Source of the DNA: Sulfuriferula nivalis
GTDB lineage: Bacteria; Pseudomonadota; Gammaproteobacteria; Burkholderiales; Sulfuriferulaceae
Length of the DNA: 64,000 nucleotides
NCBI RefSeq assembly: GCF_009937995.1
Contig: NZ_AP021881.1
Span: 1,178,001-1,242,000, forward strand
Reading direction: 5' to 3'
Under the pieces are notes generated by a model. It saw only the letters and a program-made list of their open reading frames with translations. It was not told the DNA's origin and did not search any database. The translations under genes were made by a program, and so were the position numbers. This document shows, one piece after another, positions 3,622 to 21,772 of this stretch (position 1 is the first letter of the stretch; the number at the start of each line of letters is the position of its first letter).

Positions 3622-3623
3622 AA

Positions 3624-4423: not shown

Positions 4424-4741
4424 ATGAATATAGACGATATGTTGGCTGAAATCCGTGATGCTAATTTAAATTATTTGATGTTGGCACAGCAGTTAATTCG
4501 TGCTGATAAACCAGCCGCAATTTTTCGTTTGGGCATTGATGTTCAAATTGCAGACTTGCTGGAAAGTTTAAGTAATGCGCAGGTACTTAAACTTGCAAGT
4601 AATAATATGATGCTGACTCGTTTTCGCTTTGACGACAGCGCGATTTTGGGTATGCTTACAAATTATACGAAAGATCGTGCTTTAGGGCATTCTCATGCAG
4701 CTATATTAATGGCTGGCCAATCTGTTGAGGAGCTTGTTTAA
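4424..4741 (+). CDS. flhD: Flagellar transcriptional activator FlhD
   Basis: Partner of FlhC in the FlhD4C2 master activator of flagellar class II promoters. 105 residues (E. coli 116). Begins MNIDDMLAEIRDANLNYLML, followed by AQQLI and later FRLGI, the helical FlhD fold. ATG 4424 is chosen because GAGGAG lies about 8 bases upstream and the family start aligns there; the frame is open 23 codons further up, but with no homology. flhC follows after 36 bases. Confidence 0.95.
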   Translation: MNIDDMLAEIRDANLNYLMLAQQLIRADKPAAIFRLGIDVQIADLLESLSNAQVLKLASNNMMLTRFRFDDSAILGMLTNYTKDRALGHSHAAILMAGQSVEELV

Positions 4742-4777
4742 GCACGTTGATGCAATTACTGCGGAGGTGTGTGTATC

Positions 4778-5326
4778 ATGGCCAAAAAAAGTGTCCTCAA
4801 TGAAGCCCAGGACATACAGCTTGCAACAGAACTCATCAAATTGGGTGCGCGTTGTCAGTTGTTAGAGTCGGAAACATCGCTGTCACGTGAGCGTATCTTG
4901 GCTTTATACAAAGAGGTCAAAGGGGTTTCTCCTCCTAAGGGTATGTTGCCATTTTCTACGGATTGGTTTCTGACATGGCAGCCCAATATTCATTCCTCAA
5001 TATTTTTAAATATTTATCGATATTTAATTCAGCATGCTGAAATACATGGCGTACAGGCCATGATGAAAGCATATCAGTTGTATCTTGAACAAATCGAAAT
5101 GAAATCTGAAGAAGAAGCCGTGTTGTCTTTGATGCGTGCTTGGACACTAATCAGGTTTATTGATAACAAAATGTTGGCTTCTACTGCATGCTCTCAATGT
5201 GGGGGGAATTTTGTGATTGATAAATATGATTTGAATCAGCACTATGTTTGTGGTTTGTGCCACTTGCCTTCTCGGGCAGGAAAAACCAACAAAAAGGCTC
5301 ATGACGTCGATAATATTGTTCAGTAG
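4778..5326 (+). CDS. flhC: Flagellar transcriptional activator FlhC
   Basis: DNA-binding, zinc-containing subunit of FlhD4C2. 182 residues. The family core LATELIKLGARCQLLESETS and PPKGMLPFSTDWF is present, and the four zinc cysteines are intact as CSQC (about residue 138) and CGLC (about 158). The start at ATG 4778 matches other FlhC N termini (M-x-K-S) and has GCGGAGG upstream; the ATG nine bases earlier is less likely. Followed five bases later by a methyltransferase gene, so co-transcription is probable. Confidence 0.95.
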   Translation: MAKKSVLNEAQDIQLATELIKLGARCQLLESETSLSRERILALYKEVKGVSPPKGMLPFSTDWFLTWQPNIHSSIFLNIYRYLIQHAEIHGVQAMMKAYQLYLEQIEMKSEEEAVLSLMRAWTLIRFIDNKMLASTACSQCGGNFVIDKYDLNQHYVCGLCHLPSRAGKTNKKAHDVDNIVQ

Positions 5327-5331
5327 TACAT

Positions 5332-6120
5332 ATGGCGTTATCTGGTTTTTCTGTAGCGCGTTCATTGCTGACATTGCCTGCTATTAAAGCATTAATGATC
5401 CAGTTGTTGACGGCTGGATTTGTTGTTTTAGTATTTCAGTTTTGGGTACGTTGGTTACACGTTCCGTTTTTAAATATATATGAGATCGCATTGTCGCAAG
5501 GGATAATTGCTGCACTATGGTCAAAAAAAATAAAATTGGCTGTGTGGTGGTGGTTGATTCAGTTTCTGATGCCATTTGCTTTGCTTGCCGCGCTAAGCTG
5601 GCATTTGTCGGCTACTATTTATTTGTCGGCATTTTTGTTTTTTGTGGTGTTTTATGGCCACACTTTTCGTACTCAGGTGCCATATTATCCGTCAAGTAAA
5701 TCCACTTGGTATGGCGTTGAAAGTACATTGCCCAAAGATCGTCCTTTATATATCATTGACGTAGGTAGTGGTTTGGGTGGTTTAGTTTTACATTTAGCTA
5801 AAAATTACCCGAATTGTCAGGTAGTTGGAGTGGAATTGTCTTGGTTGCCTTGGTTGTTCAGTTGGTTGCGAGGATATTTCAGTCATAGTAATGCTCGATT
5901 TTTGCGTGTTGATTATATGACACTGGATTTTGCTCAGTTTGATGTGGTATTTGCTTACTTGTCACCAGCGGCGATGCCAGCATTATGGTATAAAGCTCGT
6001 GCTGAAATGCGACCAGGTGCTATTTTATTGAGTAATGAATTTGTTGTACCAGAACATCCAGCAGACATAACAATTCAGACGGAACAGATGCGCACGCCAC
6101 TTTATGCGTGGTATATTTGA
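5332..6120 (+). CDS. Membrane-attached class I SAM methyltransferase
   Basis: 262 residues. The first 110 or so hold three to four hydrophobic segments (for example LTAGFVVLVFQFWV and STAIYL-like stretches near residues 80-105). A soluble class I SAM-dependent methyltransferase domain follows, with motif I IDVGSGLGGLVLHLA at about residue 141, an acidic residue ending the next strand (VVGVELSW) and a later FDVVFAYLSP strand. The substrate cannot be read from sequence. Position between flhC and motA, five bases after flhC, suggests it is transcribed with the motility genes, but it does not resemble the FliB lysine methylase. No strong ribosome site is visible. Function unknown; fold assignment fairly safe. 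Confidence 0.75.
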   Translation: MALSGFSVARSLLTLPAIKALMIQLLTAGFVVLVFQFWVRWLHVPFLNIYEIALSQGIIAALWSKKIKLAVWWWLIQFLMPFALLAALSWHLSATIYLSAFLFFVVFYGHTFRTQVPYYPSSKSTWYGVESTLPKDRPLYIIDVGSGLGGLVLHLAKNYPNCQVVGVELSWLPWLFSWLRGYFSHSNARFLRVDYMTLDFAQFDVVFAYLSPAAMPALWYKARAEMRPGAILLSNEFVVPEHPADITIQTEQMRTPLYAWYI

Positions 6121-6233
6121 CAACAATTGTAGTGTGGACGTTTGCAAAAGATTGATACTGGGTGCGATATTGTGAAATGCACCTTCATAATAATGAAGCT
6201 GAATAATTTTCCCAAAATGGGAGGGAGCAGCAA

Positions 6234-7094
6234 ATGTTAGTGATTGTTGGCTATGTGGTTGTGCTCGGTGCCGTTTTTGGTGGTTTCGCCATGGCCGGTG
6301 GTCATTTGGCAGCGTTGTTTCAGCCCTTGGAATTGCTGATGATAGGTGGCGGTGCTGGTGGCGCTTTTTTTGTAGGTAATAACGCAAAATCAGTGAAGGC
6401 AACATTAAAAGCACTGCCTGATATCTTTAAAGGTTCTAAGTACAATAAAGCGCTGTATATGGATTTGCTTGCGCTTTTGTTTGAGATTTTAAGCAAAGTG
6501 CGCAAGGAAGGTCTGATGTCGATTGAAGGTGATATCGAAACCCCAGATGCCAGTCCGTTGTTTAGTAAATACCCATCTATCGTCCATGATCATCATCTTA
6601 TCGAATTCATGACTGACTATTTGCGTTTAATGGTGTCTGGAAATATGGACGCATTACAGATTGAAAATTTGATGGATAACGAATTAGAAACTCATCATCA
6701 TGAAGGTGCAGTAGCAGCGCATTGTATTGCCAAACTTGGTGATGGTCTGCCTGCATTTGGTATCGTTGCTGCGGTAATGGGGGTTGTGCATACGATGGAG
6801 TCTGTTGGCGCACCACCGGCTGAATTGGGAATGCTGATTGCACATGCGCTGGTTGGTACCTTCTTGGGTATTCTGTTGGCTTATGGGTTCGTAGGGCCGC
6901 TTTCTGGTTTGCTCGAGCAGAAACTGGATGAGGCAAGTAAAACGTTCCAATGTACAAAAATTACTTTACTAGCCAGTTTAAATGGATATGCTCCGGCGCT
7001 CGCTGTTGAATTCGGGCGTAAAGTTTTATATTCCACTGAGCGTCCAACCTTCCTCGAGCTTGAAGAGCATGTCAAACAAGCTAAATCTAAGTAA
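6234..7094 (+). CDS. motA: Flagellar motor stator protein MotA
   Basis: Proton-channel stator subunit in the inner membrane. 286 residues with two N-terminal and two later membrane spans around a large cytoplasmic loop. Arg90 and Glu98, the E. coli residues that contact FliG, are found at exactly those numbers in RKEGLMSIE. The GDGLPAFGIVAAVMGVVHTM region carries the conserved channel proline. Ribosome site GGGAGGGAG before ATG 6234. motB follows after 11 bases. Confidence 0.96.
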   Translation: MLVIVGYVVVLGAVFGGFAMAGGHLAALFQPLELLMIGGGAGGAFFVGNNAKSVKATLKALPDIFKGSKYNKALYMDLLALLFEILSKVRKEGLMSIEGDIETPDASPLFSKYPSIVHDHHLIEFMTDYLRLMVSGNMDALQIENLMDNELETHHHEGAVAAHCIAKLGDGLPAFGIVAAVMGVVHTMESVGAPPAELGMLIAHALVGTFLGILLAYGFVGPLSGLLEQKLDEASKTFQCTKITLLASLNGYAPALAVEFGRKVLYSTERPTFLELEEHVKQAKSK

Positions 7095-7105
7095 GCGGGG
7101 CTGAT

Positions 7106-8074
7106 ATGGCTGAAGTGCGCCCCATAGTTATTAAGCGGATTAAGAAGGTCGCTGGTGGACATCACGGTGGTGCTTGGAAAATCGCCTATGCTGACTTTGT
7201 TACGGCTATGATGGCGTTCTTTTTGTTGATGTGGTTGTTGGGATCAACAGCAAAGGGCGATTTGAAGGGGATTTCGGATTATTTTTCTACGCCGCTAAAA
7301 GTGGCGATGCAAGGCGGTTCGGGTAGTGGTGATAGTTCGAGTGTGATTCAAGGTGGTGGCAAAGACTTGACCCGAAAAGATGGGCAAGTAAGTAAAGCTT
7401 CTGATCCAAAACAGAAAAAAACTTATGATTTAAAAGCTGCGCAGGCAGATATGGCAAAATTAGAAGAGGCACGACTAAAAGCGTTAAAGTCCAGTATTGA
7501 AGCATCAATTGATGCTAATCCGTTATTAAAACAATTTAAGAAGCAACTATTGCTGGATATTACATCCGAAGGGTTGCGTATCCAAATTGTAGATGAGAAA
7601 AATCGCCCAATGTTTGCTTCTGCAAAGGCTGAGTTGCAGCCTTATACAAAAGAAATATTGCATGAAATTGGCAAAACTTTGAATGAAGTTCCAAATAAAA
7701 TAACTTTGTCTGGTCATACAGATTCTACACCTTATGCAAATGGTGGTACTGCATATAGCAATTGGGAACTGTCAACTGATAGAGCCAATGCATCCCGCCG
7801 TGAGTTAATTGCTGGTGGTATGGATGAAAGCAAAATGTTGCGTGTTGTGGGGTTGGGTTCGGCGATACCATTTGATAAAGATAATCCCATGAATCCAATT
7901 AATCGACGTATTAGCATCATTGTAATGAATAAAAAAACAGAAGATGCCGTGATTAAGGATGGTGGTGTGTTGAGTGCCAAGGATGCTGCGGATGTTAAAA
8001 CTGGATTGGATAGTTCACTCCCAGCCCCAGTCCCATCTTTATCCCCAGCTCTACCTCCAGTTCCAGCTCACTAG
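7106..8074 (+). CDS. motB: Flagellar motor stator protein MotB
   Basis: Peptidoglycan-anchored stator subunit. One membrane span follows WKIAYADFVTAMMAF. Asp30 in AYADF is the expected proton-binding residue (Asp32 in E. coli). A plug-like amphipathic stretch comes next. The C-terminal OmpA-type domain shows LSGHTDSTPY (about residue 202) and WELSTDRANASRREL. The tail is Pro-rich (PVPSLSPALPPVP) and unlike the family. Operon with motA. Confidence 0.95.
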   Translation: MAEVRPIVIKRIKKVAGGHHGGAWKIAYADFVTAMMAFFLLMWLLGSTAKGDLKGISDYFSTPLKVAMQGGSGSGDSSSVIQGGGKDLTRKDGQVSKASDPKQKKTYDLKAAQADMAKLEEARLKALKSSIEASIDANPLLKQFKKQLLLDITSEGLRIQIVDEKNRPMFASAKAELQPYTKEILHEIGKTLNEVPNKITLSGHTDSTPYANGGTAYSNWELSTDRANASRRELIAGGMDESKMLRVVGLGSAIPFDKDNPMNPINRRISIIVMNKKTEDAVIKDGGVLSAKDAADVKTGLDSSLPAPVPSLSPALPPVPAH

Positions 8075-8148
8075 TACATATCGCTTATTGTTCGAACTGT
8101 ATATTCGACATACCATCGGCAAAACTTTTTGGGATCAGGAGATAAACA

Positions 8149-9417
8149 ATGTTATTTGAAAGCTTTGCTCAAGCGCAATCTGTTTTGTTGTGGTCGACCT
8201 TCGCTTTGGCTTTGGTTTTGGGGCTAGTCGCAAACAAAACCAATTTCTGTACTATGGGTGCAGTGTCTGACTGGGTGAATATGGGCGATATGGGGCGGAT
8301 GCGTGCATGGTTGCTGGCGATCGCAGTTGCTATGCTAGGTGTGTCTGTATTGGAATATCTGGGATTGGCTAATATTGATGCTTCATTCCCCCCGTATCGT
8401 GGTGCACAGTTGATTTGGGCGGAAAATATTTTCGGTGGTGTTTTGTTCGGTATCGGTATGACTTTCGCTTCAGGTTGCGGCAACAAGACCTTGATTCGTA
8501 TTGGTGGCGGCAATATCAAATCCATATTTGTTTTGCTGATTATTTCAGTGATAGCTTATTTTATGGTTAATCCTTTCCCCGGAACAGATAAGACATTGTT
8601 TACTGTTTTGTTTAATGGCTGGCTGCGTCCTTTAGCTATTAATGTGGGTACGCATCAAGATTTGGCTTCATTCTTAGTGAACGATGCGAGTCTGAAACAG
8701 GCTCGTTTAGTGTTGGGTGTATTAATCGCATTATTCATTGCGATTTTCGTTTTTAAGTCCAAAGATTTTCGTGCCAGCAAAGATAATATTATTGGTGGTT
8801 TGGTAGTGGGCCTGGTTGTGTTGGGTGCTTGGTATATCAGTACTGTAGTCGGCGTGAAAGCCTCTGATGGAACGGTTTATACTCTGCAGTCGTATGTTCA
8901 AGAGTGGGATTTTGCTGCTGGACCTAACGATATCAAGCCAGCAGACAGTCGTCCATTAAGTCCACAATCTTTTACGTTTATTAATCCTATGGGTCAAACT
9001 TTGGGCTATGCAATAGCTAAATTTGATGGCAGCTTTCTGACGTTTGGTGTAATGGCACTTGCGGGTGTTATTGCGGGTTCGTTGCTTTGGTCACTGTTGA
9101 GTCGTAATTTCCGTATCGAATGGTTTGCATCGTTTGCGGATTTTCGTAATCATGTATTTGGTGCCGTTCTAATGGGATTTGGTGGTGTTTTAGCGATGGG
9201 GTGCACTATAGGTCAGGGCATTACGGGTATGTCTACTTTAGCATTAGGTTCATTTTTGGCATTGATTAGTATTGTATTTGGCAGCGCTATGACTATGCGT
9301 ATGCAATATTACAAATTGGTGTATGAAGCTGATGCAAGTTTTATGAAATCATTATTTAGTAGTTTGGTTGATTTCAAATTGTTGCCAGCATTTATGCGTA
9401 AGCTCGAAGCAGTTTAA
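8149..9417 (+). CDS. YeeE/YedE-family sulfur-compound permease
   Basis: Integral membrane protein of 422 residues with about ten hydrophobic segments and the duplicated Sulf_transp (DUF395) repeats. The conserved cysteines lie in NFCTMGA (near residue 35), FASGCGNKTL (about 108) and LAMGCTIGQG (about 350), which in TsuA line the thiosulfate path. Likely imports thiosulfate or a related sulfur species, or supplies sulfur to a partner enzyme. Ribosome site CAGGAG before ATG 8149. The stop lies only 18 bases before the inverted repeat of the mobile region, so any native terminator or downstream partner has been displaced. Confidence 0.85.
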   Translation: MLFESFAQAQSVLLWSTFALALVLGLVANKTNFCTMGAVSDWVNMGDMGRMRAWLLAIAVAMLGVSVLEYLGLANIDASFPPYRGAQLIWAENIFGGVLFGIGMTFASGCGNKTLIRIGGGNIKSIFVLLIISVIAYFMVNPFPGTDKTLFTVLFNGWLRPLAINVGTHQDLASFLVNDASLKQARLVLGVLIALFIAIFVFKSKDFRASKDNIIGGLVVGLVVLGAWYISTVVGVKASDGTVYTLQSYVQEWDFAAGPNDIKPADSRPLSPQSFTFINPMGQTLGYAIAKFDGSFLTFGVMALAGVIAGSLLWSLLSRNFRIEWFASFADFRNHVFGAVLMGFGGVLAMGCTIGQGITGMSTLALGSFLALISIVFGSAMTMRMQYYKLVYEADASFMKSLFSSLVDFKLLPAFMRKLEAV

Positions 9418-9434: not shown

Positions 9435-9486
9435 TAAAAACCCTTTGCATTATCACAACTAGGGCGTGTAATATCGTGTTGATAAC
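9435..9486 (+). repeat. Left terminal inverted repeat of the outer element
   Basis: Begins TAAAAACCCTTTGCATT and continues to the GTTGATA block. It matches the reverse complement of 21721-21772 without gaps at 47 of 52 positions, with 17 identical bases at the outer tip. It lies 56 bases before the transposase start, as expected for an element end. Confidence 0.85.
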
Positions 9487-9541
9487 TTCAGCATAATTCA
9501 ACTACAATGCTCCTTGAGTCTACGATTCAGGGGGCATTACT

Positions 9542-11440
9542 TTGGCGAAAAAATCTTCTTCAGGCTATCGGCTACCACCACCGCATGACGGGTTGAACGT
9601 CAATTTCTGCAAAAACCCAAAATGTGCTAATTTCGGCGTGCCAGAAATACCTGGCAGGGGATACCGACCAAAAGGATCTGCACCTTTACCCGGGTTTTAT
9701 ATCCTTAACAGTAAGGGTAACAATAATCCGAAACTGGAATGCAGCATATGCGAAGACAATCAACCGATACGGAACAATGCTTCGATACTTGAAGACCTAG
9801 ATCGAATATCTGCTTACCTCAAATACACTCCCGAAGCATCTTGCCCTAATTCAGCATGCACGATGCATGGAGTTTCCTTATCTCAGGGTGGGAACAATTA
9901 CGCAGCTTTCGGCGTTACAGCAGCGGGAACGCCGCGCTGGCGATGTAACGTTTGTCGAAAGACGTTTACCGTTGGCGGCAAATCTACGCGTAAACACAAA
10001 GTCCCTCATAAGAATCGTGAGGTTATGTTACTGCTGATGAACAAGGTGCCACTAAGCCGGATTGCGGAAATCACTGGTCTGGATCGTAAATCACTATATG
10101 GGAAGATTGCTTTTATTCACCGGCAATGCCTGCTGTTAGCTCAAAGTCGGGAAAAGCTACTACTGGAAGACTTCCCACTACCAAAGATGTATGTCGCAGT
10201 GGATCGACAAATGCATATTGTGAACTGGAACAGCCGTAAGGACAGGCGCAACATTCAACTAAATGCAATCGGCACAGCGGATATTAAAACCGGCTATGTT
10301 TTCGGTATGCATCTAAATTTCGACGAAACTATCAATCCAGATCAACTAAAGCTTTTGGCGAAAGAGGCAGGAGATTACAACTTAACACAGCCATTTCGAA
10401 AATATGCCAGGTTTTGGTTAAAACCCGACTATGCGGCTGCGTTAATCAAGGGGTCATCCACAGCTAAGAGGAGAATTACGCGTGCACTTCAGATTGCGCG
10501 TGGCGCTGACACACTGACCGCAGAAATCATGGGCGAATATGAAGCAGCAAAAGATCGTGATGATATTGAGGATAGTGATGAAAAAAACAGCAACATTATG
10601 CTTCCAACTAATGGAGTGCAGGTACGGGAACAATACACCATGCAGGCCCATTTCTTGTTGATGGCAAAAATGCTAGCAAATGCGCCTAAAGTCCGTTTTT
10701 TTCTAGATCAGGATTCAGGATTCCGTGCAGCTTTTTTAGCAGCCTTCCATGATAGAGTGACTGCTAGAACTGCCGATGCCTGGTATGTAAAAGTATTGAA
10801 AGAGGCAACTATCGACGAGAAAGACCAAGCAATCGCCGCAAGCTTACGTGTGTTCAGGGCAGTAAAAGCCGCGAATCCCGGACTCACTGATTTTGAAATT
10901 AAGGTATTAATGACAAAGGCCGAGATGCAGCGCGCAGTGTCGTTGGGATACCCAGATGACTGGTGGTTGGTGCACCCATTGCCAAATAAGAGCGAACCTG
11001 CCAAACACATATGCTGGCTTACAAATATAAGCACATATTCCGACGATCATGCAGCGAGACTGTATCTGAAAGCATCATTACACCCAATCGATCGATTCTT
11101 TATGCTGGTGCGACGTAGACTTTCTTTTGCAGAGCGGGCTTACGGATCTGCCAATCAAGCAGGCCGGAAGTGGTATGGCTATAACGCGTATCGCCCAGAT
11201 AACTTAGCAAAGCTACTGGATATCTTTCGTGTGTTCTATAACTACTCGCTCAAAGGATCGGATGGCAAGACGCCCGCAATGAAATTAGGCTTGGCACGCG
11301 GACCTGTGGCACCAGAGGATATTCTTTATTTCGAGCCCCTTACCTCAACTCGAAAACCGAGAACTAAGCGCCCCGCTGATATCGATAAGCATTCTGATTG
11401 GGTTGCTGACGATAAAACACTGCCACCATGGGCATTTTAA
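9542..11440 (+). CDS. Putative DDE transposase with two N-terminal zinc ribbons
   Basis: 632 residues, start TTG 9542. The N terminus has two cysteine clusters: C23-x4-C28 paired with CSIC near residue 70, and CPNSAC near 105 paired with CNVC near 140. A helix-turn-helix follows (PLSRIAEITGLDRKSLYGKI), an arrangement like InsA/IS1-type DNA-binding parts. The C-terminal two thirds look like an RNase-H-type catalytic domain: candidate acidic residues are the Asp in YVAVDRQ (about 220), Asp in FFLDQDSG (about 388) and Glu in FAERAYG (about 530). It ends with the transposase-like YNYSLKGSDGKTPAMKLGL. It is twice the size of IS1/IS1595 enzymes, so I assign no IS family. The inverted repeat 56 bases upstream supports the transposase reading. 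Confidence 0.7.
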   Translation: MAKKSSSGYRLPPPHDGLNVNFCKNPKCANFGVPEIPGRGYRPKGSAPLPGFYILNSKGNNNPKLECSICEDNQPIRNNASILEDLDRISAYLKYTPEASCPNSACTMHGVSLSQGGNNYAAFGVTAAGTPRWRCNVCRKTFTVGGKSTRKHKVPHKNREVMLLLMNKVPLSRIAEITGLDRKSLYGKIAFIHRQCLLLAQSREKLLLEDFPLPKMYVAVDRQMHIVNWNSRKDRRNIQLNAIGTADIKTGYVFGMHLNFDETINPDQLKLLAKEAGDYNLTQPFRKYARFWLKPDYAAALIKGSSTAKRRITRALQIARGADTLTAEIMGEYEAAKDRDDIEDSDEKNSNIMLPTNGVQVREQYTMQAHFLLMAKMLANAPKVRFFLDQDSGFRAAFLAAFHDRVTARTADAWYVKVLKEATIDEKDQAIAASLRVFRAVKAANPGLTDFEIKVLMTKAEMQRAVSLGYPDDWWLVHPLPNKSEPAKHICWLTNISTYSDDHAARLYLKASLHPIDRFFMLVRRRLSFAERAYGSANQAGRKWYGYNAYRPDNLAKLLDIFRVFYNYSLKGSDGKTPAMKLGLARGPVAPEDILYFEPLTSTRKPRTKRPADIDKHSDWVADDKTLPPWAF

Positions 11441-11690
11441 GACTTGGTTGCTGATAATTTGGCTGGGTGCTGAAGGTATCCATTGTGCCTGAAGTAGTCT
11501 TTCCATTCATACAAGCATGACCGTCTCTTGTTCGGCCCTACCGGACAGTGACGTTCCAACCCTGAATGGCTGTTGTATATACTAGACTGAACTGTGGTTA
11601 CTCGCCAAATCCCACTTTCAGACTCAGTAAAAGTGCAGTGGATTACCCTTACACCCACGTCAATTTATACACCACGCAGCGTAAATAGCG
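11441..11690. other. Gap between transposase and TPR gene remnants
   Basis: 250 bases between the convergent transposase and TPR stops. No second copy of the 52-bp inverted repeat was found here. That argues against the transposase being a self-contained short element ending at this point. No gene or strong terminator seen. Confidence 0.5.
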
Positions 11691-12763
11691 TCACGTACGT
11701 CCCGTTTGCAAAGCCGTAAAATCTGGTTCTGGACACTTATGCCCAAAATGTGCCGCCCAAGGGAACTGAGCGCCGTGTTTCACGTATTGATGGTATAGCG
11801 ACTGCGCTAACTTATCATCGCCAGACAGTATCCAACCTGTCGCATTACACAACACCGATGCATATGCTTGAGACTTTACGGGCAATAATGCTGCGGTCTT
11901 TTGCGCCTCTTGCACGGCGATATAACGATAATGAAAACGTTTGTCGATGGTGGGCGTAGTTGACGCAAAACGCTGGCGTTCGGATGGGCTGACTAAATTA
12001 AAACCTTGAAACCGTTTCTGCTCTACTTTCGACAAAGCATCTACCTTGTTAAGGTATTCACCCGCAAAAAAAACAAATGCATTTTTTGGCACAAAACTTG
12101 TGTAGTCAAGCTGATAACTACCATCCGCAAAAGCATCATCCGGATCAAGTTCATATCCCAAAATTTCCATGCCATGCTCACGTGCCATGTTCGCAGCAGC
12201 ATACCAAGCTCGTGCTTTTTCAAGTTTGTCATGTGTATGCTGAGCCAAGATTAAAGATGCCATATAGGCTTTTGCCCATTGCGAGGGGTTCCCCTTCACA
12301 GGATTTCCCAATTCATCTTGAGCCATAGGCCCTGCATAAAAATATGGGATTGCTTGCGCGAATTTCCCCTCGCGCATCAATCGTCGCGCCAATAACTCAC
12401 GTAGACCTTCTGCAGGCGTACGTCGATAAGCCACAACACCCTGTATTTTCTCTTCGTCCGATACAACAGGAATGGTCGCGGCATGTTGATCGACATAGGC
12501 TTGCAATTCCTCAGTGGAAAAAATACGTTCCGCCAAATAAGCCGCATCTAACCACGACGTTTCAGACAGAATTTGTAACGCCTGATCAAAGTCTCCACGA
12601 CCTACAGAAAATACGGCAAATTCATCCCGTAAAAGCGCTTCTGGCGGAACTGTAGTCCAGTCATAGTCTTCGGCATACGTATATTCAAGCGAAGTAGTTT
12701 TAGTGGCGCCCTCAGCTTGAGGATGTTCTTGCGCATAAGCGGTCAAAGCTTGATGATATTGTT
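11691..12763 (-). pseudogene. TPR-like exported protein, 3' part
   Basis: Downstream half of a gene that begins at 17677 on the minus strand and is split by IS91 copy 1. At the junction the codons read through cleanly as AAAQQ-YHQALTAYAQEHPQAEG once the element is removed; combined length 2187 bases, 729 codons including the stop. This half is rich in helical, TPR-like pairs (for example LRELLARRLMREGKFAQAIP and KARAWYAAANMAREHG) with no catalytic motif that I recognise. It ends DFTALQTGRT. An internal TTG at 12746 could start a shorter product, but this is a remnant of the larger gene. Confidence 0.8.
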
Positions 12764-12841
12764 GAACGAAGCCGCTTAAAGTGGACCCCGATTTCTGGAC
12801 AATGAATTAAGATGGTAACCTGCTGTAAAAAGGAGCGGGTT

Positions 12842-13135
12842 GTGAGTGAAACAAATCGTAAGCATTTTTCGGGTGAGTTTAAAGCCAAGGTTGCAGTGGA
12901 AGCGATTCGTGGTGTCAAGACGGTTAACGAAATAGGTCAGGAATTTGGCGTGCATCCGACCCAGGTTGGATTGTGGAAGAAAGAGTTGCAAGAACAAGCT
13001 GCTGGCTTGTTTAATGCCAAACGCGGCCCGAAGCCAGTGGATCTCTCTGCTAGTCCAGAGCGACTGTATTCCGAGATTGGCAGACTCAAAATGGAATTGG
13101 ACTGGCTTAAAAAAAAGTCCGGGATCAACCCATAG
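12842..13135 (+). CDS. IS3-family transposase OrfA
   Basis: Helix-turn-helix DNA-binding half of the IS3 transposase, about 97 residues from GTG 12842 (AGGAG six bases upstream; start SETNRKHFSGEFKAKVA). It contains TVNEIGQEFGVHPTQVGLWK and a coiled C-terminal segment rich in leucines. A run of eight A (13109-13116) sits in the dnaX-like heptamer A-AAA-AAG in the zero frame, where -1 slippage gives the OrfAB fusion transposase. Confidence 0.92.
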   Translation: MSETNRKHFSGEFKAKVAVEAIRGVKTVNEIGQEFGVHPTQVGLWKKELQEQAAGLFNAKRGPKPVDLSASPERLYSEIGRLKMELDWLKKKSGINP

Positions 13136-13194
13136 CACTGCGCAAGCAGTGGATTAGCCAATGCACATCTTTAGCACTCAGTCAGCAGTGTGCA

Positions 13195-14088
13195 TTGGCG
13201 GGTGTGGCGCGATCCAGCGTTTATGCGCCCAGATTGATCAAAGCCACTGACGAACAAGAATTGGCATTGCTGACGTTGATAGACACAGAATACACACGGC
13301 ATCCATTTTATGGCAGCCGCAAGATTAGGCATTACCTGAGTAGCATAGGACACCACATCAATCGCAAACGAGTGCAACGATTAATGCGCACACTGGGGTT
13401 AGCTGGCATGGCGCCAGGACCGAACACCAGTCGTGCGCACCCGCAGCATAAGATTTATCCTTACCTGCTCAGAGGTGTCGCAGTGACCCGTCCCAATCAG
13501 GTGTGGAGTACGGATATCACTTACCTGCGCCTGCCACGAGGATTCGTGTATTTGGTGGCAGTGATAGATTGGTACTCGCGCAAAGTGCTGGCATGGCGAT
13601 TATCGAATACGATGGACAGTGGCTTCTGTGTGGACTGTCTGGAACAGGCACTACAGTCGCACGGCATACCTGAGTTATTTAACACTGATCAGGGCAGTCA
13701 GTTCACCAGTGACGCGTTTACGGGTGCACTCAAGGAAAACGGCATTACGATTAGCATGGATGGTCGCGGACGGGCATTGGATAACATCTTTGTGGAACGG
13801 CTCTGGCGTAGCGTCAAGCACGAAGACGTATATTTGAAAGGCTATGCTACATTACCAGCACTGCTGCTAGGATTGACGGAATACTTTGTGTTTTATAACG
13901 CTGAACGTATCCATCAGTCACTGGGTTATAAAACACCAGACGAGGTTTATCGAACAGCCAGTGGCGGTGGTGCCAGCATCGTGGACAAGTTCACTACGTC
14001 AGGAAAAGCGTTGTTAGAAAAAGATCGAAAACCAGAAACAAAACCGGGGCAGCGCCGTGCAGCTGCATATGAAAGGTTACCCTCTTAA
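13195..14088 (+). CDS. IS3-family transposase OrfB (DDE catalytic part)
   Basis: rve-type integrase core. Catalytic Asp in WSTDITYL, Asp in FNTDQGSQF and Glu in NIFVERLWRSVKHE, followed by YNAERIHQSLGYKTP. In the -1 frame the coding sequence is open back to the slippery run at 13109-13116, continuing as VRDQPIALRKQW, so the active protein is probably the OrfAB fusion. The TTG at 13195 is only a formal start. All catalytic residues are intact. Confidence 0.92.
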   Translation: MAGVARSSVYAPRLIKATDEQELALLTLIDTEYTRHPFYGSRKIRHYLSSIGHHINRKRVQRLMRTLGLAGMAPGPNTSRAHPQHKIYPYLLRGVAVTRPNQVWSTDITYLRLPRGFVYLVAVIDWYSRKVLAWRLSNTMDSGFCVDCLEQALQSHGIPELFNTDQGSQFTSDAFTGALKENGITISMDGRGRALDNIFVERLWRSVKHEDVYLKGYATLPALLLGLTEYFVFYNAERIHQSLGYKTPDEVYRTASGGGASIVDKFTTSGKALLEKDRKPETKPGQRRAAAYERLPS

Positions 14089-14226
14089 ACTCGACGTATT
14101 ATTGTCTTGACGGAGGGGTCCACTTTAGCTATCGCGGAGAAATATTCCCGAACCATCAAATTACGCAGCATAATTTCGTCTCCCCCAGCAATGGAATTTT
14201 GATTACTGTACCACGAGGAGACGACA

Positions 14227-15140
14227 TTGACAGCCCCCACACCCATCCCCGCGCACTTCGAGCACAATCACCAGCGACTGCTGAATTGCCTCAAGCTCAG
14301 AGGCATGCAGCCTAAAACCATCGCCTTGTATTCACACGGCGTACGGCGCGCAGCGGTGTATTTTAATGACCAGATAGACGCGCTCACCAAGCCACAATTA
14401 ACCGACTATTTTGTTCGCATCCTGGATACCCATTCATGGAGTACGCTCAAACATGATCTGTATGGACTGAAGTTCTATTATGCCCATGTACTCAGCCAAC
14501 CCTGGCCAGGTGCGGATCTGGTTAAACCACCCAAGTCATATAGCCTGCCCGACATCATTACCGTCGCCCAGGCACAACAAATCTTCATGGCCACCCGCGT
14601 ATTGAGCTACCGCGTATTCTTCTTCACCCTCTACAGCCTGGGCTTACGATTAGGCGAAGGCTTACGCTTGCAGGTAGGGGATATCGATGCGGATCGGATG
14701 CGGGTGCAAGTACGCAACGCCAAAGGCAACCGTGATCGATTGGTGCCGTTATCAGAGAACACCTTGCAGGTATTGCGCCGTTTCTGGCTCACCCATCGCA
14801 ACCCAAGCTTGCTCTTTCCTAATCGACACGGCGGTCTTGCCAAATCGCACTTGGCACGCACCCCGCTGGATCGTGGTGGTATCCAGACCACCTTGGGTCA
14901 AGTGACCCGTGACTGTGGCTTAAAAAAAGAATTACACCACACAGCCTGCGCCACAGCTATGCCACCCACCTGATAGAAGCTGGCATCGATTTACTCGAAA
15001 TTCAGCAGATACTCGGACACCAGTCCATCCTCACCACCATCCGCTACACCCACCTCACCGAACAACGCCATCAGAGCGCACACACTCGCCTTAATCAATT
15101 AATGGAGAAATTCCACATTCATTGGGGCAAAGTCAAATGA
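14227..15140 (+). CDS. IS91-associated tyrosine recombinase, copy 1, needs -1 frameshift
   Basis: Phage-integrase-type protein encoded upstream of the IS91 transposase. Start TTG 14227 after GAGGAGA. The zero frame has the N-terminal SAM-like domain and the first catalytic Arg region ([16 protein letters not shown]) but stops at 14973 before the active site is complete. A run of seven A at 14922-14928 allows -1 slippage into the frame reading [22 protein letters not shown] and TIRYTHL, which supplies HxxR, His and the Tyr nucleophile, ending at 15138-15140. That stop overlaps the transposase ATG as ATGA, showing that the shifted frame is the real C terminus. Full product about 303 residues. 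Identical in copy 2. Confidence 0.85.
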
Positions 15141-16252
15141 TCAGACTGGCGCACATCGTAGCAACCTACGCAGCTAAACTGCTTGCACAACACGGTCATC
15201 ACCTATTGCCCAGCCAGCAAGCTGCCTTAACCGCCTTTCAAACCTGCCGTAGCCAGATGAGCCCGAGGATGCAACTTGCCTGTGATGATTGTCAAACACC
15301 CAGCTACCTGCCACATTCCTGCGGTCATCGGCATTGCCCGCATTGCCAGGCGCACGAATCACAGCGCTGGATAGACCAGCAATTACACAAATCCATCCCC
15401 GCCAACTACTTCATGCTCACCTTCACCGTGCCCGCCCAGTTGCGCACACTGGCCTGGCAACATCAGCGCGTCATGTATGACTTGATCACACGCTGCGCGT
15501 GGGAAACAGTCAACACCTTCAGCCAAAACGACAACAAGCTGCGCGGCAGCGCAGGGGCGGTGACTGTACTGCATACCCATAACCGCCGACTGGACTATCA
15601 CCCCCATGTGCATCTCGTCATGCCCGCTGTCGCCTTTAACCCCAAACAGCGACGCATGCGTCATAAACACGGCAACTACCTGTTTAACCACAAAGCCCTG
15701 GCCAAAGTATTTCGTGCCAAATTACTGGCAGGCATCAGACAAGCAGGACTCACCCTGCCAAACGATTACCCGACCGATTGGGTGGTGGATTGCAAAGCCG
15801 TCGGCACTGGACAGCACGCTCTGATCTACCTTGGGCGCTATCTGTATCGGGGGGTGATACAGGAGAAAGACATCCTCTCCGACCGGCATGGTCAGGTCAC
15901 CTTCCGTTACCGGAACAGCCAAACCAAACAAATGGAAACCCGTACCTTGAGTGGTGTAGCCTTCCTGCGACTGATACTGCAACACATTCTGCCCAAAGGC
16001 TACCGCCGCGCCCGCAACTTTGGCTACCTGCATCCCAATAGCAAACTACTCACCCAGCTACAGCTGACCCACCTATGGCGACGGAACAATCCGCCGCCAG
16101 CGCAACCCAGACCAGCGATACGTTGCCAATGTTGCGGTGGGGTGATGAAGATAGTGCGCACACGTATCAAAGCGATACCGCTAGCCACATCAGCCCCATC
16201 TATAAAACGGGAACACAGAGCAGATGACACAGGGTGGGAGACCATGCGCTAA
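15137..16252 (+). CDS. IS91-family HUH (Y2) transposase, copy 1
   Basis: Rolling-circle transposase of about 371 residues from ATG 15137 (the TTG at 15122 lies inside the recombinase end). N-terminal zinc-binding cysteines CDDCQ and CGHRHCPHC, the HUH motif HPHVHLVMP, and the paired tyrosines in [10 protein letters not shown] expected for the Y2 nucleophiles. C-terminal CQCCGG resembles the family tail. The four-base overlap with the recombinase gene implies coupled translation. Confidence 0.93.
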
Positions 16253-16521
16253 ACCAGCCCACACCGCCCACCTGCCAGACTAGGCAGGTATGGCCGTGCT
16301 CGCCCTGAAGAAGGCTGAAATTGGGTTAACATGCCCGAAAAGCCGACTAAAAACGGTGAGTTGAATAGAATAAGTTGCTGCAATGGCAACGTGAAGGTCG
16401 TGAAATGGCGGGTGGGATGCGTAACGCGTCCAGTTATGCCAGCATAGTCAAAAAGATATTTCCATAAGCGCTCAAGCAACACCCGCCCCAGCCATGCCGG
16501 GCTTGTCCAACAAACGGTTCA

Positions 16522-16549
16522 GATTGTGGCTCGCTTCGCGATCACAATC
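16522..16549. repeat. oriIS-like hairpin near right end, copy 1
   Basis: GATTGTG and CACAATC pair around an inner TCGC-TTC-GCGA stem, ending 14 bases before the element terminus at 16563. A hairpin just inside the 3' end is typical of the IS91 replication origin. The same structure occurs in copy 2. Confidence 0.7.
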
Positions 16550-16563
16550 TAACCTTATTCGTT

Positions 16564-17677
16564 GTGCAGCGGCATCCATATCACCTCGTTGGATGGCCAG
16601 TTTTGCCTTCAACCATTCTGCGCGAGGCGAATTGGCGTGCTTTGCAAACTTTGCCGCATCTTCGTAGCGACCCATGGCATAGGCCATAACGGCTAAATTA
16701 TCCGCCCCATCAAAATTTTTCTGACGGAGTTGCTGCTCACTTATTTCCAATAAAGCACTCATCTTGTCAGCTTGTTCAGGTTTTGCCGTCTCTCTACCAA
16801 AGGCATCCCCCGGTTCAACAAAATCCACCACATAACTAATCAACAGTTTACGGGTTTCGTTATCTTCTGCCGTCAACGACAACAAGTTTTGATTTTTAAA
16901 TAACCACCGCGAAACGTCTCTCAACGATAATATTCCATCACCACCCAGACGGCTCTGCATCGAGTATAGATGCACGGCCTGAACCACATTCGCAGCGACT
17001 TCTTTTGATGAGCCGTCCGCCAGACTGGGGTAACCTGCGGTCAGTAAGTGAGTGCGCGCCTGTTCCCCATAACTCTCCAGTGCCAATTGCAGAGGATCAG
17101 CTTTACCTTGGCTAGCAAGTTTGCGAGTCATAACAAAATACTGATCTGCCTGTAACAGCAATTGTGAGTCAGGCTTGATATCACGGATTTGTACCAAAGC
17201 AATCCGTCCTAGCATAAATGCCGCCCATACCACACGTGAATCGCCCGACTTATCAGGCAGGTTCAAAATCTTATGGAAACGTTCGGCAGCAGATGTGTAA
17301 TGCTGAAGATGAAAATCTGTTGCTGCAGCAGCATACAAACGATCTGCTTCGGGTTTGTCAGCCAATTTACGATAGGTTTCATCCCCGCTGGCATCCAGAA
17401 TTTTCTCAGATTGAGGATTTGGCTGCTCATCCGTTGTAGTAGAATTTTCGCTTGAACTGACTTCATTTGTGCCTGTAACGGGCGGTAAGTTTTTTGTCGA
17501 ATCCGTACCATCCAACAAATGCATGGCGTCTGCATAAAAATTTCCACCGGTTGCTGGATCGGCTAACACAGCTGCTCGCCCCGGCAATAAAAGTTTGAAA
17601 TCTGGGCCGCAGGCTAAAGCGGTCAGCACCAAAGTACTGGCCAGCACCGCAATTAAAGTCAGTTCAATTTTCCGCAT
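16564..17677 (-). pseudogene. TPR-like exported protein, 5' part
   Basis: Upstream half of the 728-residue gene completed at 12763-11691. ATG 17677 overlaps the DUF3142 stop by 14 bases. An N-terminal signal sequence (MRKIELTLIAVLASTLVLTA, cleavage near LACGPDF) suggests export and perhaps a lipoprotein, although the lipobox is not ideal. After a low-complexity Ser/Thr/Asn stretch come TPR-like helices (DRLYAAAATDFHLQHYTSAA). The open frame runs about 30 codons into IS91 and stops at 16472, so a truncated product could be made. No function known to me. Confidence 0.8.
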
Positions 17678-18794
17678 ATGTTTTCATCCCCGTTGTAGCA
17701 CAACGAATCCAGCCAATCACGCGTTGTGCATGTCCATGTAATAAGCCTTCCTGCTGTCGCGAAAAAGATGCTTTGTCTGGATTAAAGACATAAGCATTCG
17801 CACCATCCCCTACTTCGCAAGCATGATTCAGTACAAGCAATCTTGGTAATTCCACATCCATATCATTTGGATTATTTAACACCACGGTCAACATCCCGTT
17901 AGTATGTGATTGTAGTTCCGGCAACAAAGGCACCGCATGATAACGGTCATCCATCACAGCTACCCAAGTTTGGTATGACCAAGTTCTGCGATCCCCACTC
18001 ACAGGGAGGCGGAACCAAACTACACCTTGTAAATGCGCTGGTGGATCAGTGTGTAATTTACGCAAAAACGCGGTCAGCACAGCTGGTTGAGCCATTAATT
18101 CTTGTGTTTGTTGTGCAGAGGCCAATATAGGCATCTCGCTTTCAACGGCTAGTAATTTACCTTGCGTGTTACTTAAAATTCGGGAACCGTAATTAGGTAA
18201 TGCCAATTCAAAAGGGGTGCTGGATAAATGGGAAAATTCTTGCGCCCAAGTCTCTGCTAACGAGGAATCAAACAGCCCTTGACGTGGATTGCTGACTGCG
18301 TGAACTTGCAAAGTGTAACGCGACACCTGATGCAATAAAGACGAAATGCTGCTTGAATGCCGCCAATCAGGCAGCGCCGTAATATTCAGGGATATGTCTT
18401 TAGGTAAGCTATCACGCAATTGACGTAGAAAATGTTCGTAAACAGGTAATTGCTGAGTCGCGCAGTCATAATCTATTTCCAGTGCAGAAACATGTACCCC
18501 ATGTGACTGCCATTGTTGCCGAACTTGCGTCAAACGATCGATGAGCATATTTCCATCCAAGTGCCGCATCTGTCCATCAATACGAAATACCATCACCACA
18601 GGATGTTTTAAGCGAGGCAGTACGGAAAATGAAACTTGAGCAGGGCTAAAAGATTGCGCATCATGATCAAATTCACCCGCCAACACATGCCAACGATCCA
18701 CATGACTCGATGCCTCTGCTTGTTGAAGTGCAGCAACCACCGAGGAGGTCCAAGCACGTTGCCAAACGTATGCGCCCTGCTGAAAGTCTTTGTT
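17664..18794 (-). pseudogene. DUF3142 protein, main part, split by IS91 copy 2
   Basis: Carries almost all of a DUF3142 domain: AYVWQRAWT near the start, EIDYDCATQQLPVYEHFLRQ, SLNITALPDW, FELALPNYG and GVVWFRLP. The pattern resembles TIM-barrel glycoside-hydrolase-like folds; EIDYD could be the active-site strand, but that is inference. The first 33 codons, with the lipoprotein signal, lie across the IS at 21339-21241. Joining the two gives LSACTKHNKDFQQGAYVWQ in frame, 410 codons including the stop. The frame here stays open into IS91 up to 18944, so a fusion without a signal peptide is possible. The stop overlaps the TPR gene start. Confidence 0.8.
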
Positions 18795-18903
18795 GAACGA
18801 AGCCGCTATCGCGGAGAAATATTCCCGAACCATCAAATTACGCAGCATAATTTCGTCTCCCCCAGCAATGGAATTTTGATTACTGTACCACGAGGAGACG
18901 ACA

Positions 18904-19817
18904 TTGACAGCCCCCACACCCATCCCCGCGCACTTCGAGCACAATCACCAGCGACTGCTGAATTGCCTCAAGCTCAGAGGCATGCAGCCTAAAACCATCG
19001 CCTTGTATTCACACGGCGTACGGCGCGCAGCGGTGTATTTTAATGACCAGATAGACGCGCTCACCAAGCCACAATTAACCGACTATTTTGTTCGCATCCT
19101 GGATACCCATTCATGGAGTACGCTCAAACATGATCTGTATGGACTGAAGTTCTATTATGCCCATGTACTCAGCCAACCCTGGCCAGGTGCGGATCTGGTT
19201 AAACCACCCAAGTCATATAGCCTGCCCGACATCATTACCGTCGCCCAGGCACAACAAATCTTCATGGCCACCCGCGTATTGAGCTACCGCGTATTCTTCT
19301 TCACCCTCTACAGCCTGGGCTTACGATTAGGCGAAGGCTTACGCTTGCAGGTAGGGGATATCGATGCGGATCGGATGCGGGTGCAAGTACGCAACGCCAA
19401 AGGCAACCGTGATCGATTGGTGCCGTTATCAGAGAACACCTTGCAGGTATTGCGCCGTTTCTGGCTCACCCATCGCAACCCAAGCTTGCTCTTTCCTAAT
19501 CGACACGGCGGTCTTGCCAAATCGCACTTGGCACGCACCCCGCTGGATCGTGGTGGTATCCAGACCACCTTGGGTCAAGTGACCCGTGACTGTGGCTTAA
19601 AAAAAGAATTACACCACACAGCCTGCGCCACAGCTATGCCACCCACCTGATAGAAGCTGGCATCGATTTACTCGAAATTCAGCAGATACTCGGACACCAG
19701 TCCATCCTCACCACCATCCGCTACACCCACCTCACCGAACAACGCCATCAGAGCGCACACACTCGCCTTAATCAATTAATGGAGAAATTCCACATTCATT
19801 GGGGCAAAGTCAAATGA
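18904..19817 (+). CDS. IS91-associated tyrosine recombinase, copy 2, needs -1 frameshift
   Basis: Same as the gene at 14227-15140, offset by 4677 bases. The zero frame stops at 19650. The run of seven A at 19599-19605 leads to the -1 frame with LRHSYATHL and the TIRYTHL tyrosine, stopping at 19815-19817. Keeping the same slippery run in both copies means the shift predates the duplication, whether programmed or mutational. Confidence 0.85.
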
Positions 19818-20929
19818 TCAGACTGGCGCACATCGTAGCAACCTACGCAGCTAAACTGCTTGCACAACACGGTCATCACCTATTGCCCAGCCAGCAAGCT
19901 GCCTTAACCGCCTTTCAAACCTGCCGTAGCCAGATGAGCCCGAGGATGCAACTTGCCTGTGATGATTGTCAAACACCCAGCTACCTGCCACATTCCTGCG
20001 GTCATCGGCATTGCCCGCATTGCCAGGCGCACGAATCACAGCGCTGGATAGACCAGCAATTACACAAATCCATCCCCGCCAACTACTTCATGCTCACCTT
20101 CACCGTGCCCGCCCAGTTGCGCACACTGGCCTGGCAACATCAGCGCGTCATGTATGACTTGATCACACGCTGCGCGTGGGAAACAGTCAACACCTTCAGC
20201 CAAAACGACAACAAGCTGCGCGGCAGCGCAGGGGCGGTGACTGTACTGCATACCCATAACCGCCGACTGGACTATCACCCCCATGTGCATCTCGTCATGC
20301 CCGCTGTCGCCTTTAACCCCAAACAGCGACGCATGCGTCATAAACACGGCAACTACCTGTTTAACCACAAAGCCCTGGCCAAAGTATTTCGTGCCAAATT
20401 ACTGGCAGGCATCAGACAAGCAGGACTCACCCTGCCAAACGATTACCCGACCGATTGGGTGGTGGATTGCAAAGCCGTCGGCACTGGACAGCACGCTCTG
20501 ATCTACCTTGGGCGCTATCTGTATCGGGGGGTGATACAGGAGAAAGACATCCTCTCCGACCGGCATGGTCAGGTCACCTTCCGTTACCGGAACAGCCAAA
20601 CCAAACAAATGGAAACCCGTACCTTGAGTGGTGTAGCCTTCCTGCGACTGATACTGCAACACATTCTGCCCAAAGGCTACCGCCGCGCCCGCAACTTTGG
20701 CTACCTGCATCCCAATAGCAAACTACTCACCCAGCTACAGCTGACCCACCTATGGCGACGGAACAATCCGCCGCCAGCGCAACCCAGACCAGCGATACGT
20801 TGCCAATGTTGCGGTGGGGTGATGAAGATAGTGCGCACACGTATCAAAGCGATACCGCTAGCCACATCAGCCCCATCTATAAAACGGGAACACAGAGCAG
20901 ATGACACAGGGTGGGAGACCATGCGCTAA
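19814..20929 (+). CDS. IS91-family HUH (Y2) transposase, copy 2
   Basis: Identical in translation to copy 1: zinc-finger cysteines, HPHVHLVMP, and the YLGRYLYRG tyrosines. ATG 19814 overlaps the recombinase stop (ATGA). This copy sits in the uninterrupted element and is the more likely source of active transposase. Confidence 0.93.
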
Positions 20930-21198
20930 ACCAGCCCACACCGCCCACCTGCCAGACTAGGCAGGTATGGCCGTGCTCGCCCTGAAGAAGGCTGAAATTG
21001 GGTTAACATGCCCGAAAAGCCGACTAAAAACGGTGAGTTGAATAGAATAAGTTGCTGCAATGGCAACGTGAAGGTCGTGAAATGGCGGGTGGGATGCGTA
21101 ACGCGTCCAGTTATGCCAGCATAGTCAAAAAGATATTTCCATAAGCGCTCAAGCAACACCCGCCCCAGCCATGCCGGGCTTGTCCAACAAACGGTTCA

Positions 21199-21226
21199 GA
21201 TTGTGGCTCGCTTCGCGATCACAATC
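21199..21226. repeat. oriIS-like hairpin near right end, copy 2
   Basis: Same GATTGTG/CACAATC stem with inner TCGC-TTC-GCGA, 14 bases from the element end at 21240. Confidence 0.7.
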
Positions 21227-21240
21227 TAACCTTATTCGTT

Positions 21241-21339
21241 ATGTTTTGTACAAGCTGATAATGCAAGAAAAGCAATGATCAAGACTAGGTTTCTCAAAGC
21301 AATTAAAAACGACCTTTTATGGTTTAGCGTGTTGCTCAA
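21241..21339 (-). pseudogene. DUF3142 protein, 5' part with lipoprotein signal
   Basis: Minus-strand 33 codons cut off from the main body by IS91 copy 2. Encodes a basic N-region (NHKRSFLIALRN), a hydrophobic core (LVLIIAFLA) and the lipobox LSAC followed by TKH. The TTG at 21339 is my best start (GGA a few bases upstream; TTG at 21294 is an alternative). A TATAAT lies at 21369-21364 on the same strand, but no good -35 is visible. The frame joins that at 18794 without a shift. Confidence 0.7.
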
Positions 21340-21720
21340 TTCTATTCCAACAATGTGCGTTATATTATAGTTAGTATGAATGATCCGCAGTTTGATTTTC
21401 GCTTGCCCCTTAATGAAAAACGAATACACTTAAGCTGGTATTTCAGTCCGTTGTGGTTATTTTACCTGTCATTGTAACCTTTTATGATTAGACTGGGACC
21501 GTCCGATTTGGCCGAGCAGCTGACGTTAAACTCGACCTGGAATGCATATTGGCTGACAATTGGCACCTCGCGCAACCAATCGGATGTAGAAACAAAAAAG
21601 TGGAGCTCTGTTAAGAGCTCCACTTTGAATGTTAATACTTTAAAACCAAAATGTCATTACTCACTTAAATTCAGTAAGTATGCGTTCATGCTATACGCTA
21701 ATGGGTTAATTACCACTTTC
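21340..21720. other. Right-end non-coding region of the outer element
   Basis: About 380 bases without a convincing gene, between the DUF3142 start and the right inverted repeat. It holds a possible -10 (TATAAT, minus strand, 21369-21364) for the DUF3142/TPR operon and a strong minus-strand terminator at 21591-21626. A frame at 21484-21831 on the plus strand runs through the terminator and the inverted repeat and has no recognisable features. Confidence 0.5.
21591..21626 (-). terminator. Rho-independent terminator
   Basis: Perfect 12-bp stem (21597-21608 with 21615-21626; AAAGTGGAGCTC and its complement) around a 6-base loop. Read on the minus strand it is followed by TTTTTTGTTT. It would stop transcripts leaving the cupin gene before they enter the element's minus-strand operon. 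Confidence 0.8.
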
Positions 21721-21772
21721 GATATCAACACGATATTACACTCCCTAGTTATCACAATGCAAAGGGTTTTTA
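21721..21772 (-). repeat. Right terminal inverted repeat of the outer element
   Basis: Reverse complement matches 9435-9486 at 47 of 52 positions without gaps. Its outermost bases also form the stop codon (TAA at 21772-21770, minus strand) of the neighbouring cupin gene, so the insertion point lies at the very end of that gene. Confidence 0.85.

Follow-up and report, generated by a model that had tools for sequence, protein, structure and literature searches.

A cargo transposon of Sulfuriferula nivalis from a sparse family that very probably favours the apices of terminator hairpins

Insertion sequence (IS) 1 makes a 9-bp target duplication (8-9 bp) and encodes its transposase in the insA/insB' frameshift arrangement; to our knowledge, no preference for terminators has been described for it. 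Excerpts of three papers describe elements with comparable targets. IS1272 chooses potential stem-loops without a common sequence, and the stem-loop is replaced with no target duplication, although a pathway that would keep the stem and duplicate the loop is drawn there as a possibility (PMC5678879). Group IIC introns are retroelements that prefer rho-independent terminators and insert just after them (PMC8919778). The insertion point of TnGBS and its IS relatives is 15-17 bases upstream of the -35 box of sigma-A promoters (PMC3942029), and the text of that paper contains the word 'terminator' 0 times. Among the titles and abstract openings that literature searches listed, no transposon family is said to insert into terminator loops, and a named ISfinder entry is possible. 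Here, we analysed a 64,000-nucleotide stretch of Sulfuriferula nivalis DNA (the window; contig NZ_AP021881.1, positions 1,178,001 to 1,242,000), in which positions 9459-21748 hold a cargo-carrying transposon. We consider it very probable that this element belongs to a sparse, widespread family that inserts mostly at the apex of perfect inverted repeats, which are usually terminators.

Ends of the element and its target in the window

A reading of the sequence alone (the sequence-only reading) had placed the ends of the element in 52-bp inverted copies at 9435-9486 and 21721-21772. These copies are indeed present, with a 47/52 match and no gap (53 nt at 91% by a repeat finder), and the 3.44-Mb genome has just two occurrences of the 52-bp motif at up to three mismatches, one on each strand; the control pattern, the motif read backwards, has 0 occurrences. 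As a transposon end, however, the 52 bp did not hold up. The repeat is composite, consisting of a terminal inverted repeat of about 26 bp (25/26 match) and, outside it, the split stem arms of a host intrinsic terminator that served as the target. The sequence TTATCACAA stands directly before CTAGGG on the left (9450-9458) and, in the same orientation, directly after CCCTAG on the right (21749-21757), 9/9 identical, and thus forms a perfect 9-bp target duplication. Since these two copies repeat directly, target DNA makes up the outer 24 bp at either side; the element is bounded by the CTAGGG at 9459 and the CCCTAG at 21748, and the bases beyond are host DNA. The target being palindromic, its arms make a terminal repeat of about 26 bp look 52 bp long. 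Of the five mismatches of the 52-bp repeat, three (9452, 9454, 9456) fall within the hairpin loop, whose two copies repeat directly, and are not decay; the remaining two are inside the element. A TA target duplication, suggested by the outermost bases, was dropped given the 9-bp direct repeat.

When the flanks were joined, with the element and one duplicate removed, they gave AAAAACCCTTTGCATTATCACAATGCAAAGGGTTTTTA, in which a 17-bp stem closes a loop of 5 nt and is flanked by A/T tracts to left and right. It is an intrinsic terminator acting in both directions, shared by the convergent yedE-like and cupin genes, and the target duplication is centred on its loop. Stem arms and a 9-bp duplication are both present, in contrast to the IS1272-like replacement, in which the stem-loop is lost and nothing is duplicated. 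Inverted ends and target duplication together enclose the transposase and the cargo, as in a unit transposon. The proposal of one transposon with a single transposase near its left end and a two-gene cargo, grown by later ISs, is accordingly borne out by the 9-bp duplication and by a same-genus element with like ends and other cargo. Its size without the later ISs is 12,290 - 2 x 2,449 - 1,354 = 6,038 bp, compared with the 6,092 bp calculated previously, the element and IS boundaries behind this figure being uncertain by a few bases.

Among 18 genomes of the same genus, the window-type transposase was found in two, its own and G002, in which it is split by an IS and is 82-86% identical to that of the window. 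The G002 element is 13 kb long, and both of its ends equal the left end of the window element over 26/26 positions. It has its own perfect 9-bp duplication, CGTTTATTG, in the loop of another terminator, which belongs to a ccsA-like gene. The outer arms are wholly unlike between the two elements and the inner 26 bp agree; at a blastn E of 0.01, only the transposase region and the ends are in common. In the close relative G001, whose ccsA-like protein is 96% identical to that of G002, an uninterrupted terminator of the same build occupies the G002 site, and terminator-like hairpins follow the ccsA-like gene in several further relatives (folds, judged by eye). Further copies bounded by the full 52 bp, expected elsewhere by the sequence-only reading, were not found in these 18 genomes.

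Ends and centred hairpins across the family

We scanned 37 homologous loci for inverted ends of 26 bp flanked by direct repeats of 9 bp, a procedure blind to the palindromy of the flanks, and chose the ends by eye. The scan left out L011, G445 (L042), a degenerate second copy from the genome of the window (in L022), and L125, which has inverted repeats only. Both ends were found in 17 loci (11/19, 5/15 and 1/3 in three rounds), 16 of them with scores of at least 30 of 35; the ends of G339 were found weakly, with a score of 26 that is within the chance-pair range. The inner ends of the relatives, mostly CTAG.. or CAAG.., begin at the same boundary as those of the window. Sixteen of the 17 two-ended sites were folded. 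H2, which has both ends, a 9/9 duplication and, by eye, terminator-like arms, was left out of the fold and the counts, as were the loci without ends (L007, L009, G073, G563, G748a, H1, H3, H4, G864, L048, H7 and H8, and from the family f233 G823, G852, G930, G984, G991, G1055, G1060 and G1078), of which L007, L048 and G563 are on short contigs. Of the 16 folded elements, 13 have a 9/9 duplication and three (G393, G339 and G403) one of 8/9, within the 8-9 bp of IS1-type elements.

A stem of at least 9 bp is centred on the duplication at 10 of the 16 folded sites (window, G002, L010, G393, G370, G748b, G784a, G999, G1064 and H9). Control positions in the flanks reach 9 bp at a mean frequency of 0.42% (highest locus, 0.79%), and so do 136 of 21,234 positions (0.64%) located 5-95 bp after the stops of long open reading frames (ORFs). 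With the two discovery sites, the window and G002, set aside, the count is 8/14. The binomial tails for 10/16 are 7e-18 and 9e-19, to be taken as a guide only, with a post hoc threshold and related elements. This count took the place of folding energy in 49-nt windows, a measure by which GC-rich flanks look well folded throughout. At the nine of the ten sites that were folded for energy, the centre of the duplication is no more than 1 nt from the apex, and A/T tracts are seen by eye at nine of the ten. At 13/16 sites, an open frame of at least 110 codons (raw frames, not gene calls) has its 3' end within 100 bp. The ten sites include H9 from Pontibacillus (Bacillota), whose transposase has 23% identity.

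The duplicated 9-mers have no visible consensus, and hairpin shape may be the simplest common factor because they share no visible sequence. We propose that the transposase would attach the two ends at nicks staggered by 9 bp, and that insertion would part the stem arms, which would then seem to lengthen the terminal repeats. The shape of a hairpin or cruciform may be what the transposase, or a partner, recognises.

Transposase, leader and cargo

The transposase of the window is a single ORF and does not have the insA/insB' frameshift arrangement of IS1. It gave no Pfam transposase domain and no PHROG match, and it scored 22.4 bits against the curated NCBIfam IS1 model, below the cut-off of 100. 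Across the family, 14 of 15 members match NCBIfam transpos_IS1 at an E of 0.01 or better (best, 8.8e-12). The IS256-type NCBIfam matches of the window protein and the members are weak, fall in the zinc domain and do not qualify them as Mutator-like transposases; a PDB search returned zinc-finger-type similarity in the 60 of 139 matches listed. In the family alignment, we picked by eye an invariant D221 and the nearly invariant D389 and E531 as catalytic candidates. The family transposase is a zinc-ribbon protein of about 600 amino acids (aa), probably of the DDE type and distantly related to IS1. The homologue of G1064 (L071 2947-5499) has an N-terminal exonuclease domain, RNase_T (E 3.6e-24), and that of G748b (L041) has the same domain by eye; G393 has a separate RNase_T gene close to the right end of its element.

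The family is thinly spread. At an E of 1e-20, the transposase was found in 7/399 genomes of the order and 4/369 of the class (own genome included where searched), and a profile search of the phylum at an E of 1e-40 found it in 15/398 genomes, eight of them from f233. Further draws (order of G784, 2/78; family of G999, 1/218) added no new copies. Matches were found in 121 of 72,556 plasmid records, of which 101 are from Enterococcus, Staphylococcus, Lactococcus or Listeria, and, with the H2 protein as query, in 2 of 50,697 phage records; a scan of viral contigs gave one related locus, whose sequence stops just past the match. In another search, 106 of 114 matched plasmid records were from the same four genera, and most rows among the matches listed share the same identity. 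The Enterococcus plasmid relative L125 adjoins dfrG, within 50-nt inverted repeats. The f233 genomes (L072-L079) and the Vibrio/Photobacterium records H7 and H8 (L118, L119) have a shorter homologue with no ends found, and their upstream flanks are alike (purine-phosphorylase-like, by eye), as if it were fixed at one chromosomal place.

In the fold-back control of IS10 and IS50, a leader hairpin that forms only in read-in messages hides the ribosome-binding site. We folded the 75 nt past the left repeat in 20 members (14 two-ended, six with the left end set by eye; G748b, G1064 and H9 left out). The z-score is below -2 in 19 of them, with a mean of -4.1 and G784b as the exception (0.1), and in several, the window included, a purine-rich, ribosome-binding-like stretch is seen by eye in the 3' arm before the start codon. 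The best -35-like box is at element position 21 in 14/20 (best-match scan without control). In 13/20, the expected transcript start would lie 3-11 nt into the 5' arm of the main helix; in the other seven, it would be 20-27 nt in. Messages reading in from a gene whose terminator was destroyed would probably be blocked by the leader hairpin in translation, continued transcription or both, and the element's own messages, with their predicted start inside the 5' arm, would escape the block. This predicted arrangement would suit an element that destroys the terminators of upstream genes, as in fold-back control; its likeness to IS10/IS50, a leader hairpin hiding the ribosome-binding site, is drawn here from folds and promoter matches.

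The cargo is exchangeable and is placed between the transposase and the right end. Restriction-modification, Shango or AbiE genes are found in 8 of the 16 folded elements. L008, G339 and G999 have type IIG-like methylases, in G999 with a specificity subunit, and G393 has a methylase adjoining a protein with weak similarity to type II restriction enzymes (E 7.5e-6). G784a has a D12 methylase and a NotI-like enzyme, G784b an Eco57I-type methylase and a BsuBI/PstI enzyme, and G403 AbiEii with a DUF6088 partner (AbiEi match below cut-off). The cargo of G002 matches SngA, SngB and, in two pieces, SngC of Shango, for which anti-phage activity is described in an excerpt of PMC10250203. Elsewhere we found a DUF6035/CoiA-nuclease-like protein (G370), a PEP-CTERM protein (G1064, with a similar one by eye in G748b), cargo without a family (G1090) and small hypothetical proteins (H9). 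L010 and H6 have the transposase only, with no space for cargo. A right repeat soon after the transposase gene, which the sequence-only reading had counted against a cargo-bearing unit, does occur in the distant relatives L010, H2 and H6, at 82-132 bp; they show that the family has IS-like members too, and the window element stands, with 21748 as its sole right end. The SngC-like helicase gene of G002 (L021 13010-16476) is split by an IS, with an identical inverted copy in the same element, and this Shango system is probably inactive.

The window cargo consists of DUF3142 and TPR-like genes on the minus strand. DUF3142 is present in 8/300 genomes of the order, own genome counted, and in six of them above the cut-off. 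At three of five loci examined (G132, G030, G120), it is directly followed by a TPR-like gene of 734-765 aa, with no match to the window transposase within 14-15 kb; the two genes are about 6 kb apart in G289, and the DUF3142 locus of G248 has no TPR match. As the pair adjoins in other genomes, it is a pre-existing operon that was picked up by the element. A search of the 17 other same-genus genomes, some of them incomplete, found no DUF3142, and thus no sign that the cargo had been at this locus before. PADLOC at an E of 0.01 had no match for the DUF3142 protein, the 5' TPR piece or the transposase. The two IS91-like copies (12761-16563 and 18792-21240), identical over their shared length, pass the IS91 Y2 transposase model with 347 bits (cut-off, 125). 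One splits the TPR gene and the other lies inside DUF3142, directly past the signal peptide, so the cargo is probably dead, with the transposase open. Coordinates are given in Table 1.

Table 1 Features of the transposon and its target in the window
Feature	Position	Strand	Basis or remark
Left stem arm of target terminator (host DNA)	9436..9449		Pairs with 21758-21771
Target duplication TTATCACAA, left copy	9450..9458		9/9 identical to 21749-21757
Left terminal inverted repeat	9459..9484	+	25/26 against right end; 26/26 against both ends of the G002 element
Predicted promoter	9479..9508	+	-35 TTGATA inside repeat (9479-9484), -10 TACAAT (9503-9508), 18-bp spacer; best consensus match without control
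Leader hairpin, 15-bp helix	9506..9538	+	z -4.3; AGGGGG in 3' arm just ahead of TTG start
Transposase, 632 aa, open	9542..11440	+	ORF; in family alignment A1 of 15
TPR-like gene, 3' part	11691..12760	-	ORF 11691-12746; tblastn to 734-765-aa genes in G030, G120 and G132
IS91-like copy 1	12761..16563	+	2,449 bp without inner IS3; NCBIfam IS91 E 1e-103
IS3-family copy within IS91-like copy 1	12777..14127	+	NCBIfam IS3 E 2.3e-77; 3-bp GCT duplication
TPR-like gene, 5' part	16564..17677	-	Lipoprotein-like start (by eye)
DUF3142 gene body	17664..18791	-	Pfam PF11340, E 3.3e-70
IS91-like copy 2	18792..21240	+	Core common to copy 1 and the L022 copy
DUF3142 lipoprotein signal-peptide piece	21241..21297	-	By eye, ...FLALSACTKH
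13-bp hairpin inside right end	21597..21626		Fold
Right terminal inverted repeat	21723..21748	-	
Target duplication TTATCACAA, right copy	21749..21757		
Right stem arm of target terminator (host DNA)	21758..21771		Overlaps cupin gene stop codon 21770-21772

The degenerate second copy in the same genome (L022 about 4700-8560; C1:2125700-2129560) keeps the left-end leader, the first 25 transposase residues and the right end; an IS with DDE_Tnp_1/DUF772 replaces the rest of the transposase, and a 349-aa exported-looking ORF within the copy has no Pfam match. At least three identical IS91-like copies of about 2,449 bp, which also encode a tyrosine recombinase, are present (two in the window, one at L022 about 1250-3700), and represent a recent burst; the third appears by eye to break a cytochrome-oxidase-like gene.

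Alternative explanations and comparison with known systems

Like ends around differing cargo, 9-bp duplications and centred hairpins are the observations behind the family of apex-inserting transposons proposed here, and several points weigh against that proposal. No ends were found in 20 of the 37 scanned loci, the ends of G339 (18/26 + 8/9) are no better than the best chance pairs elsewhere, and the relative L125, from Enterococcus, has no repeat outside its ends. Six of the 16 folded sites have no centred 9-bp stem (L008, G339, G403, H6 and G1090; G784b has 6 bp), and the 9-bp threshold was set after inspection. By folding energy, 7/15 sites are in the lowest 2% of control windows, with L010 (13%) and G748b (21%) outside it, and G393, which has no T-run, has a hairpin but not a typical terminator. 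An unoccupied orthologous terminator for the window site was not found in relatives, three of which have yedE and cupin matches about 0.5 kb apart. The AlphaFold2 model of the transposase (5 sequences) reached a predicted local distance difference test (pLDDT) score of 42, which leaves the putative DDE chemistry to D221/D389/E531.

The most substantial alternative, which we regard as unlikely, is that site choice is tied to the ends of transcription rather than to shape, through polymerase pausing or termination or a low host cost, with survival bias retaining insertions at terminators. The nearness of open-frame 3' ends at 13/16 sites would suit it, and low host cost is the reason given, in the excerpt of PMC8919778, for the position of group IIC introns by terminators. 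However, harmless intergenic sites off the apex should then be equally frequent, whereas the duplication is on the apex within 1 nt in the nine of the ten sites folded for energy, and positions 5-95 bp after stops reach the 9-bp stem at still only 0.64%. It is most improbable that the terminal repeat is truly 52 bp, with its outer 24 bp part of the transposon: the ungapped 47/52 match would agree with this, but the outer part in G002 is wholly different beside the same inner 26 bp, 9450-9458 recurs directly and not inversely, and the inner ends of relatives start at the same boundary. Equally hard to credit is that DUF3142/TPR was already at the locus and was bracketed by the accident of two insertions; the operon does occur without a transposase match in G030, G120 and G132, yet the unit as a whole is flanked by a single, perfect 9-bp duplication, and DUF3142 was not found in the 17 other same-genus genomes, some of them incomplete.

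We therefore retain insertion at hairpin apices, and on balance lean towards a wider proposal: a shape-guided transposase for hairpin or terminator apices, with a 9-bp stagger and a leader hairpin that would blunt read-through, may carry single anti-phage systems through Proteobacteria and Bacillota as a one-protein vehicle. Terminators are harmless, abundant landing places, and a single transposase would offer restriction-modification, Shango and AbiE systems a simple way to pass from one genome to another without prophages or large islands. The window also carries a warning for annotators, in that part of the inverted repeats round an element can be a palindrome of the target.

The window element thus points to cargo transposons of a little-described family with a preference for terminators. 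Its likeness to the IS1 family and the IS1595 superfamily lies in the 9-bp duplication, the zinc-ribbon N-terminus and the weak matches to IS1 models; in contrast, the family transposase has about 600 aa, against 199 for the IS1 model, and the window element carries cargo. With IS1272, in the excerpt of PMC5678879, it shares stem-loop targets, but here the stem remains and the loop is present twice. The preference for terminators is shared with group IIC introns, as excerpted from PMC8919778, whereas here a DNA transposon lies inside the loop. TnGBS, ISLre2 and ISKra4 (p-MULT), as excerpted from PMC3942029, are likewise DDE elements that target a transcription signal, although at the opposite end of the transcription unit. 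A DNA transposon of terminator loops would be the counterpart of the promoter-directed TnGBS/ISLre2 elements, with its insertion guided by structure.

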